DNA from: Cellulosilyticum sp.
Lineage (GTDB): Bacteria > Bacillota > Clostridia > Lachnospirales > Cellulosilyticaceae
Reading direction: 5' to 3'
DNA: 53,217 nucleotides
Assembly: GCA_017421915.1 (NCBI GenBank)
Contig: JAFOHG010000065.1
Span: forward strand, 1 to 53,217
In this document: positions 43,467 to 46,633 of the stretch, piece after piece
Numbering within the stretch: position 1 is the first letter of the stretch
How the letters are laid out: the number at the start of each line of letters is the position of its first letter
Program-made: the position numbers and the translations under genes
The notes under the pieces: model-generated
What the model saw: only the letters and a program-made list of their open reading frames with translations
Databases searched by the model: none
What the model was told of the DNA's origin: nothing

Positions 43467-43874
43467 ATGATAAAAGATGAATGTCAAAAAGATTTAGATG
43501 AACTTAATGCACTAGATTCAGACATCGTTTTATTTGATGACCATCAAAGCTATGAGGGCCTAGATGAAGATGGGTATGATGAATATGACTATGATGATGA
43601 CGATGTGTATGATTTTTCTATGCCAAAGGAAAGTAGCGCAGGTTCTTGGACATCATTAGTATTAGGTATTATCTCATCATTAGGATGGATTGTTCCCATT
43701 ATTGGATTACCTATAACAATAGTAGGGACAGTATTTGGCGCAATTAACATCAGAAATAAAAAATCTAGAGGCGTTGCAATTGCTGGCTTTGTAATAAATA
43801 TTGTTTTCTTGTGTGCAAGTATTGCAAAAGGAATTGTTGATATTGTTATGTATGCAAGAAAAAATAGAAAGTAA
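43467..43874 (+). CDS. DUF4190-like membrane protein with acidic N-terminus
   Basis: 135 residues. Residues 1-52 are strongly acidic, with a run of Asp and Tyr (DEYDYDDDDVYDF). Residues 55-130 hold two hydrophobic helices separated by a GAINIRNKKSRG loop, the pattern of DUF4190 membrane proteins. The acidic part would face the cytoplasm or outside depending on topology and could bind cations or basic partners. The function is unknown. The ATG follows TTGGGGGTAG. It is monocistronic with its own terminator. Confidence 0.7.
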   Translation: MIKDECQKDLDELNALDSDIVLFDDHQSYEGLDEDGYDEYDYDDDDVYDFSMPKESSAGSWTSLVLGIISSLGWIVPIIGLPITIVGTVFGAINIRNKKSRGVAIAGFVINIVFLCASIAKGIVDIVMYARKNRK

Positions 43875-44046: not shown

Positions 44047-44385
44047 GTGTATAGACAGGTCATTATTATAAATAGTGATACACTTGGAAGAGGAGATGAA
44101 GGTGTTGGGCAGACACTTTTAGGTACATTTTTAAGAAAGATATTGGCACGCCCAGATAAACCCGATGCAATTGTTTTCTATAATTCAGGTGTAAAACTCT
44201 TAACAAGACAGTCTTATTATTTAGATGTATTAGATGCTTTAGAAAGAAGTGGAGTAGAACTACTAGCTTGTGGAACCTGTGTCTTTAAAGTTTGTGGTCA
44301 ACATTCATTGGCAGTAGGAAGAATTTCTAATATGGATGAGATTACAGATATTATGATAGGGGCTAGTCAAGTAATAACACTTTAA
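44047..44385 (+). CDS. DsrE/YedF-like sulfurtransferase-type protein
   Basis: 112 residues. SDTLGRGDEGVGQTLLGTFL, VFYNSGVKLLT and ELLACGTC match the C-terminal DsrE-like domain of the YedF proteins linked to selenium metabolism. Those proteins usually also carry an N-terminal TusA domain, which is absent here. The CGTC cysteines are candidate persulfide or selenium carriers. The start is a GTG at 44047, six bases after GGGGGAG. No selenium genes (selA, selB, selD) are adjacent, so the role is uncertain. Confidence 0.75.
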   Translation: MYRQVIIINSDTLGRGDEGVGQTLLGTFLRKILARPDKPDAIVFYNSGVKLLTRQSYYLDVLDALERSGVELLACGTCVFKVCGQHSLAVGRISNMDEITDIMIGASQVITL

Positions 44386-44441: not shown

Positions 44442-44517
44442 AAAAAATAAACGTTATGCAAAGTAGAATCGTGACCCTTTATAGGCAGGAATTCTAAGCA
44501 TAACGTTTATTTTTTAT
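44442..44517. terminator. bidirectional long hairpin terminator
   Basis: AAAAAATAAACGTTATGC (44442-44459) pairs with GCATAACGTTTATTTTTT; inner AGAAT/ATTCT pairs extend the stem. It separates the convergent YedF-like and alpha/beta-hydrolase genes. Confidence 0.8.
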
Positions 44518-44526
44518 AAGTACTTA

Positions 44527-45567
44527 TTAATAATCATCTCTTAATTCATAGATATGGTTTATTAAATCTTCAATAGTAGATAAAATAGTAGGCACATCAC
44601 TTGCATTAATAGCAGTAGTCGAGTTTTCAATAAAGGTTTGGCTGCTATCTGAAGACAGGGATAAGAGTGATTTTTGGGTACGTGACCAATTGCCATAGGC
44701 ATTATTTTGAGAAGTAATCACACGAATAGGAATATCACCTAAAGTTTGGCCTGCATCAATAGCATCTAAAATGACTTGTGCATTATTAGGTACATTAAGT
44801 TTTTCAGCAATGACATTACGATTCCAAGTTTTTTCTAAACCAATTCCTTTATTAAGTTTACGCAGGTCTTCAGAAAACTCTGGATTATTATTAAGTACAT
44901 TAGAAACATATTGAGTATTACCCATAAGACGTAATAGACCTGTATTACGAAGTGCATTAGTCATAAAAGACTCAATAATCATAATGTTATTATAATCTGC
45001 ACAGAAAGAAGGAGAAGTTCCTTCAATAAATACAATGCCAGCTACATCTTCAGGATAAAGCTGAGCATAACGAATGGCTTCTAAAGCTCCCATACCTTGT
45101 GCTACATAAATAAATGGCTCTAAATAAGTATCTTCATCACCAGGCACATCATCTGTGTGTAATAAGGTGTGAATCTCTCTGCAGATTTGATCAATATCTC
45201 TAGGTTTGTTGGTATAATCACTCCAACCATAGCCAGGTCGGTCATAAACCATTACACGATGATTTTCTGATAAAGGATGATGAAGAGGGTATAAATCAAC
45301 ATAAGGTACATTGCTTCCAATATTTCCGGTAAAAACAATTGGTAAATCACCAGTTCCTGATTCATAAAGATGCATATTCACACCTTCTATATCAATAAGA
45401 CGTCCCATACGTCCTAGATGACTTGCATTACAATAAATTGCAATTTGTTGATAAATAATACCTAAAGCAACGAGGCCTAATATAGTTAAAGGTACTAAAC
45501 GTTTTTTTAGTTTTTCTTTTCTTCTACTAGTCTTTTTGATTTTCATCTTGCGCTTTAATCCCTTCAC
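44527..45567 (-). CDS. Membrane-anchored alpha/beta-hydrolase homologue, probably inactive
   Basis: 346 residues: a Lys/Arg-rich N-terminus, one hydrophobic anchor (about 24-42), then an alpha/beta-hydrolase domain facing outside. YDRPGYGWSD and VAGIVFIEG are typical of the fold. At the nucleophile elbow, where active members have G-x-S-x-G, it reads AQGMG, with Gly at residue 158. The usual acid and histidine positions near ITSQNNAYG and STTAINASDVP also lack an obvious Asp and His. It may be a binding protein rather than an enzyme. The start is uncertain: GTG 45567, or ATG 45546 with AAGGGA 12-13 bases upstream. Confidence 0.8.
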   Translation of the reverse strand: MKGLKRKMKIKKTSRRKEKLKKRLVPLTILGLVALGIIYQQIAIYCNASHLGRMGRLIDIEGVNMHLYESGTGDLPIVFTGNIGSNVPYVDLYPLHHPLSENHRVMVYDRPGYGWSDYTNKPRDIDQICREIHTLLHTDDVPGDEDTYLEPFIYVAQGMGALEAIRYAQLYPEDVAGIVFIEGTSPSFCADYNNIMIIESFMTNALRNTGLLRLMGNTQYVSNVLNNNPEFSEDLRKLNKGIGLEKTWNRNVIAEKLNVPNNAQVILDAIDAGQTLGDIPIRVITSQNNAYGNWSRTQKSLLSLSSDSSQTFIENSTTAINASDVPTILSTIEDLINHIYELRDDY

Positions 45568-45724: not shown

Positions 45725-46633
45725 ATGGACATAAAACAATTCGTACAGCTTTTAAAGACAAAGCTCCCTCAAAATATAATCTTTGAAAATGAACAGATGA
45801 AAAATTATACTACTTTTAAAATAGGTGGTAATGTAGATGTAATGATTAAACCTACTTCATATGAAGAAGTTTCAGAAGCAATAAAGCTATGTAGAGCACA
45901 TAAAATACCATATTACATTTTAGGAAATGGTAGTAATTTATTAGTTGCAGATGAAGGGTATAGAGGCGTGGTTATTCAGATCTATAATCAATTAGCCAAT
46001 GTACAGGTAGAAGAAAATATGATTAAGGCACAAGCTGGTGCATTACTTTCTAAAATTGCTCATAAAGCTATGGAAAATAGCTTAACAGGATTAGAGTTTG
46101 CACACGGTATTCCAGGAACTTTAGGTGGTGCTGTAGTGATGAATGCAGGTGCCTATGATGGTGAAATGAAAAATGTACTTGTAAGTTGTGATGTATTAGA
46201 TGAAGAAGGCAACATAGTGACACTTACAAATGAAGCATTAGAGTTAGGATATCGCACAAGTATTATTCAAAAAAAGAATTATGTTGTATTAGGTGCAACA
46301 ATGGTTTTAAAACAGGGGAATCAAGAAGCCATTAAAGATTATATGAAAGAATTAATGGGTAGAAGAAAAGACAAACAGCCTTTAGATAAACCGAGTGCAG
46401 GAAGTACTTTTAAGCGACCAGAAGGACATTTTGCTGGTAAGCTTATTATGGATAGTGGATTACGTGGTTATCAAATAGGTGGCGCAATGGTATCAGAAAA
46501 GCATTGTGGTTTTGTAGTCAATGCAGGTGGAGCAACTTGCAAAGATGTGGAGCAACTGATTGAACATGTTCAAAAAGTTGTTTATGAGAAATTCAATGTT
46601 CAGTTAGAAGCAGAAGTTAAGTTTTTAAAATAA
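45725..46633 (+). CDS. murB: UDP-N-acetylenolpyruvoylglucosamine reductase
   Basis: Makes UDP-N-acetylmuramate with NADPH and FAD, the second committed step of peptidoglycan synthesis; cytosolic. It has 302 residues. The FAD-binding part contains ILGNGSNLLVAD, and FAHGIPGTLGGAVVMNAG is diagnostic. KPSAGSTFKRPEGHFAGKLI carries the catalytic serine of the type II enzymes, and the C-terminus has HCGFVVNAG. The ATG follows AAAAGGAGTTGATAAG. It heads murB-rapZ-yvcK-whiA-crh. Confidence 0.96.
   Translation: MDIKQFVQLLKTKLPQNIIFENEQMKNYTTFKIGGNVDVMIKPTSYEEVSEAIKLCRAHKIPYYILGNGSNLLVADEGYRGVVIQIYNQLANVQVEENMIKAQAGALLSKIAHKAMENSLTGLEFAHGIPGTLGGAVVMNAGAYDGEMKNVLVSCDVLDEEGNIVTLTNEALELGYRTSIIQKKNYVVLGATMVLKQGNQEAIKDYMKELMGRRKDKQPLDKPSAGSTFKRPEGHFAGKLIMDSGLRGYQIGGAMVSEKHCGFVVNAGGATCKDVEQLIEHVQKVVYEKFNVQLEAEVKFLK

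Follow-up and report, generated by a model that had tools for sequence, protein, structure and literature searches.

The well-known pseudoenzymes of the alpha/beta-hydrolase fold are mostly proteins of animals and plants, among them GID1, which is soluble, and the neuroligins, which have a larger domain and a Ser to Gly change. To our knowledge, the order in which such proteins lost their catalytic residues has usually been erased.

According to PMC3531792, GID1 is a non-catalytic receptor that has kept the fold and its lid, has lost the catalytic His, and holds its hormone with the lid, the Ser and the acid. Neuroligins and cholinesterase-like adhesion proteins display a membrane-anchored, non-catalytic alpha/beta-hydrolase ectodomain (PMC5943944). 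Triad-less bacterial families of the fold are also already in print: sections 17 and 26 of PMC11878206 present DUF3530 and DUF687, two separate families of Pseudomonas and Chlamydia, as alpha/beta-hydrolase-like proteins that are thought to be non-enzymatic and linked to the envelope or membrane.

The protein described here is encoded on a 53,217-nucleotide contig of a Cellulosilyticum sp. (JAFOHG010000065.1), the whole of which is referred to as the window. It shares with the neuroligins a membrane-anchored hydrolase domain that is non-catalytic, in its own case very probably so, whereas neuroligins are animal proteins with known protein partners. GID1, compared by features, is at the same stage as the Ser-bearing, His-less orthologues in sister genera of Cellulosilyticum, but it is a plant protein which, unlike the window protein, retains its Ser and uses it in binding. 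The window protein matches PF00561, and neither DUF3530 nor DUF687 is among its Pfam matches at E ≤ 1. What is unusual here is that the order of the losses is preserved at one locus, together with a repeated Ser to Gly change. The literature searched, with most subscription journals lying outside it, held no description of the gene in Cellulosilyticum.

The gene, its start codon and its membrane anchor

The gene had previously been annotated, from the letters of the window, as full length, membrane anchored and followed by a terminator, all of which held. It is a 346-codon reading frame on the minus strand, a detail absent from the first-pass annotation, and the frame is open in all 13 orthologues. 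The features of the locus are as follows.

44527-45567, minus strand: pseudo-alpha/beta-hydrolase gene, codons counted from GTG, stop codon at 44527-44529
45544-45546, minus strand: likelier start codon ATG (MKIKK...)
45442-45498, minus strand: transmembrane anchor, residues 24-42, LVPLTILGLVALGIIYQQI
44442-44515, both directions: bidirectional intrinsic terminator, common to the gene and the convergent yedF-like gene
44047-44385, plus strand: DsrE/YedF-like neighbour, a conserved flank
45725-46633, plus strand: murB-like gene, a conserved divergent flank

The divergent neighbour is one which we take to be murB, and the names of the other neighbours are in part presumptive in the same way. Residues are numbered from the GTG at 45567. 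This codon is not conserved, while the ATG 21 bases downstream, at 45546, and a Shine-Dalgarno-like AAGGGA stretch (45559-45564) are conserved in two orthologues, L004 and L005, with a similar arrangement in L002, so that translation probably starts at the ATG rather than the GTG and the protein would begin at residue 8. A single hydrophobic 19-mer behind a Lys/Arg-rich N-terminus was properly measured in 12 of the 13 orthologues; for L011 the automated measurement had fallen on bases lying upstream of the coding region. The anchor would place the N-terminus inside and the hydrolase domain outside the cell. Between the gene and its convergent neighbour lies a perfect 18-bp inverted repeat (arms 44442-44459 and 44498-44515) with T-runs on both strands, a folding z of -9.1 and a structured loop of 38 nt; it was absent from the output of a simple terminator scan of the window, probably owing to the length of this loop.

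Fold of the protein

The alpha/beta-hydrolase fold proposed for the protein was borne out by the match to PF00561 (Abhydrolase_1; 27.7 bits, cut-off 25.8), which was found at E ≤ 0.01 in all 16 members of alignment A1. A first AF2 model, built from the window protein and L030 (Candidatus Cellulosilyticum pullistercoris, 74% identical and in sequence the same as L004; alignment A2), was too poor to use (pLDDT 36.8, pTM 0.28). Trimming of the anchor and addition of L031 (alignment A4) gave a pLDDT of 50.7 and a pTM of 0.59, in a model that draws on three sequences and is good for topology, not for pocket geometry. In this weak model, numbered as residue minus 50, G158 lies just past beta-5 and E182 just past beta-6, while the loop between beta-8 and alpha-F contains T318. 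Despite its low confidence, the model had 1078 matches in the PDB at E ≤ 0.001 with Foldseek, and the top match with VIA was a soluble epoxide hydrolase (Z 16.1, rmsd 3.4, 202 aligned residues); among the 50 matches listed for each method, the titles look like those of alpha/beta-hydrolase-fold proteins. Searches of viral contigs for further admissible relatives found none.

Two of the three catalytic residues are gone

The three positions of the catalytic triad are:

45094-45096, minus strand: Gly158, codon GGT, where the elbow would carry its nucleophilic Ser
45022-45024, minus strand: Glu182, the acid kept at the end of beta-6
44614-44616, minus strand: Thr318, at the site of the lost catalytic His in the beta-8/alpha-F loop

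The elbow reads VAQGMGALEA, as first reported. Its nucleophile position is Gly in 7/7 genomes of Cellulosilyticum, encoded by GGT, GGA or GGC, and Ser in 6/6 syntenic orthologues of two sister genera, all with TCN. The Gly is therefore old, and no fewer than two base changes separate its codons from those of the sisters; the earlier remark that AGT would give Ser is right as codon arithmetic, but TCN, the codon of the sister orthologues, is two changes from GGN. The assembly from which the window comes is incomplete (81%), and Gly158 might have been a fault of sequencing or assembly, or a mutation that arose recently in the strain, but its presence in seven of seven species-level genomes with three codons refutes this explanation, to which we attach practically no probability. 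At position 157, next to the nucleophile, His has changed to Gln in five of the seven Gly-bearing orthologues.

The claim that a catalytic His is missing is likewise correct. At the position of the His, the residues of the 13 orthologues are T, T, T, S, K, D, D, N, N, D, N, N and E, while all 25 other Ser-bearing homologues scored have His; L023 was omitted from these counts since its open frame stops short of the column. Nor does the clade hold a replacement, the only clade-invariant His being H66, which is also present in 15 of 21 active-type homologues. Orthologues with Ser at this site, which had been named beforehand as a refutation, do occur in the sister genera, but not in the sense intended: Gly is shared by all seven congeners, and the six sisters with Ser are already His-less. 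L023 itself (G006:C220:19544-20503) is a related hydrolase of the same genus whose frame stays open for 292 residues before an internal TGA; its Ser is present and the remainder is cut off, making it a possible pseudogene or an assembly error.

The acid is a different matter, and here the first-pass annotation, which saw no candidate and considered the whole triad lost, has to be corrected. At the end of beta-6, 24 of 25 Ser- and His-bearing homologues have Asp, as do 22/22 further ones; the exception, L029, seems to carry the usual beta-7 acid. All 13 orthologues keep Glu or Asp at this site. The alternative of an acid after beta-7 was rejected, as the two adjacent candidate positions, tallied by hand over the same 25 homologues, hold an acid in 10 and 6 sequences, respectively, compared to 24 for beta-6. 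Asp at the end of beta-6 is common in the alpha/beta-hydrolase fold generally. The case for a catalytic acid therefore rests on the contrast between beta-6 and beta-7 and on PMC7034887 and PMC11878206 (section 26), in which the beta-6 acid is an established alternative (the group B acid position of the former).

With Gly158 at the nucleophile position and Thr318 at that of the base, acyl-enzyme chemistry is impossible by the known route, and the window protein is very probably non-hydrolytic, judging from its sequence. That it is still an enzyme, with another nucleophile or base or with non-covalent catalysis by Glu182, appears unlikely. Retention of Glu182, invariance of the polar lid residues N193, N194, E199, S200, E245 and K246, and the existence of lyases of this fold that need no Ser (section 26 of PMC11878206) are consistent with such rebuilt chemistry, but those lyases rely on an acid-His dyad, and in the present clade the site of the His, lost without replacement, has been free to vary.

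His was lost before Ser

Trees were computed without the three triad columns, with L029 dropped from the first and L029, L020, L025, L026, L028 and L023 from the second. The 13 syntenic orthologues form a clade (SH-aLRT 100), within which the seven Gly-bearing sequences form a nested clade (SH-aLRT 97-99). The Ser/Gly split and the loss of His each follow a supported clade, beyond what would be expected by chance. Since His is missing even in the Ser-bearing orthologues, it was lost first and Ser second, and the simplest history would be a single basal loss of His and a later, single Ser-to-Gly change. In this scenario, an active ancestor with Ser, His and the beta-6 Asp would have lost its base (His 318) before Cellulosilyticum and the two sister genera split, and the nucleophile, useless by then, would have become Gly in the ancestor of Cellulosilyticum. 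Gly would fit the strained elbow, so that the change may have kept or even improved stability.

The direct homologues of the protein are Clostridia hydrolases with Ser, His and Asp(beta-6) (L014, L017, L047 and relatives), which have the same domain, the same beta-6 acid and mostly, by eye, the same N-terminal hydrophobic segment. Unlike the window protein, they retain Ser and His, and their lids are variable.

The gene is maintained at a fixed locus

The gene is present in 7/7 Cellulosilyticum genomes, 5/5 genomes of genus g9 and the single genome of genus g2, and absent from all 11 genomes that represent six further genera of this family. All 13 orthologues sit between a yedF-like gene and murB, and 12 of the 13 loci have a potABCD block close by. 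In the genera that do not have the gene, yedF adjoins murB at 7/10 murB loci, and the other three show no yedF inside the 1.5-kb flank. A function based on an operon was considered and rejected, since the gene is solitary between convergent and divergent neighbours and murB lies about 5 kb away in three genomes. A small acidic membrane protein, encoded at 43467-43874 in the window, occupies the same place in 13/13 loci; nothing in Pfam matches it with confidence (SUR7 reaches 19.7 bits, under the cut-off).

Values of dN/dS (NG86) were 0.093-0.193 for six pairs in the subclade of the window protein, while two deeper pairs gave 0.260 and 0.318 and three pairs from a Ser-bearing genus 0.153-0.160; the corresponding range for murB was 0.097-0.177, and dS, at 0.76-1.9, is partly saturated. 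As the Ser-bearing genus gave similar values, there is no clear relaxation from the loss of Ser. The proposal that the gene is under selection therefore stands (dN/dS 0.09-0.32, open frames and a fixed locus throughout), as does that of a membrane-anchored homologue maintained without, very probably, hydrolysing anything. On these sequence data the protein is a maintained one, and the combination of an incomplete triad with purifying selection is that expected of a non-catalytic pseudoenzyme. A gene in the course of decay would also have shed catalytic residues, in this case two, and could account for a dN/dS somewhat higher than that of the flanking murB-like gene (0.09-0.32 versus 0.10-0.18) and for the absence from all 11 genomes of the six other genera. 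Decay is nevertheless very improbable and largely refuted by the 13 open frames, the fixed locus, a dN/dS far below 1 and an invariant lid motif.

Conservation of the lid and a putative ligand-binding role

The lid, lying between beta-6 and beta-7, comprises:

44743-45009, minus strand: cap/lid, residues 187-275, which equals the core in conservation across the clade
44965-44991, minus strand: lid motif NNIMIIESF, residues 193-201, clade-specific

Within the clade, 25 of the 89 lid positions are invariant. Invariant residues were counted as derived when no more than 10% of the 21 outgroup rows had them, these rows leaving out L029, L020, L023, L025, L026 and L028, and when none of the five nearest did. 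Eight of the 13 derived invariants are in the lid (N193, N194, M196, S200 and F201, all of the motif, and G241, E245 and W248); the others are A48, R53, I83, Y291 and D324.

The ratio of lid to core identity was 0.98 in the clade (78 pairs), and 0.44 (36 pairs) and 0.49 (10 pairs) among active-type homologues, most of which are non-orthologous. A search of 24 genomes for orthologues of an active-type paralogue found them in three, and these gave 0.92, a value from only 3 pairs. In the light of this control, lid conservation shows only that the lid still matters, and its use as proof of ligand binding is weakened. Orthologues whose ligand is fixed normally show such conservation; here it has outlasted the loss of the catalytic residues.

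On balance, the membrane-anchored pseudo-hydrolase most likely binds a ligand in its former active site without hydrolysing it, following the loss of His and then Ser. Selection would have been kept up on the lid and the pocket, so that a small or lipid-like molecule is most likely bound there, which may be presented or else reported to a partner, should the protein signal at all. The ligand-binding role that the first-pass annotation had tentatively raised is thus plausible. The main rival, a smaller though real possibility, is a structural or protein-partner role on the cell surface (scaffold, adhesion or foldase-like) in which the pocket is irrelevant, neuroligin-like rather than GID1-like. 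Catalytic residues would then drift freely while fold and frame persist, and the five derived invariants outside the lid could be understood; non-catalytic adhesion proteins of the fold do exist (PMC5943944). It fits less well with the majority of derived invariants falling in the lid, the usual place of ligand specificity, and with an acid retained in all 13 orthologues.

Parallel losses in other Clostridia

A second triad-less family, which contains L020, was found in genus g35, where 25 of 37 genomes have a match at E ≤ 1e-20. In the 24 members L079-L102, the nucleophile position holds Gly (23) or Lys (1), His is present in none, and the acid position holds Asn (18), Asp (3), Ser (2) or His (1); L103, from genome G314, is an active-type paralogue. 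The seven g35 stretches compared have one common locus, where the neighbours are ABC permeases, an HD-domain protein and a PpiC-type protein. The family thus resembles the window clade in its lost Ser and His and its fixed locus, but differs in having mostly lost the acid too and in its genomic context. The second tree held 11 of the 24 members plus L103, and the 11 group together, separately from the clade of the Cellulosilyticaceae, with a support of 97-100 according to which branch is taken. On the evidence of sequence and tree, g35 has lost the triad independently of that clade. A 472-residue protein (L137:7947-9362), with the ABC permeases on one side and the g35 pseudo-hydrolase on the other, and conserved in the seven loci, has no Pfam match and is possibly a binding protein.

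A survey of 29 loci, of which 5 were duplicates and 24 were scored, yielded L165 (Ala, Asp, Lys) and L166 (Gly, Asp, Asp, with a poorly aligned His region), which belong to other families of the class. As single sequences, they suggest two further losses. We tentatively consider it possible, though doubtful, that Clostridia repeatedly convert one membrane-anchored alpha/beta-hydrolase family into non-catalytic surface receptors, with loss of His and a Ser-to-Gly change; the tree supports conversion in two lineages, the Cellulosilyticaceae clade and genus g35.

Implications

The loss of catalytic residues is legible here at one locus, His having gone first and Ser second, while the acid stays. 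If the repeated conversion is real, a Ser-keeping, His-less intermediate is still alive at the same locus in Cellulosilyticaceae, and the orthologues would form a natural progression leading from an enzyme to a binding protein. With a parallel Ser-to-Gly change in another genus, the question of what follows the loss of the base becomes testable with natural orthologues, and the finding points to an unstudied family of surface proteins in Clostridia.
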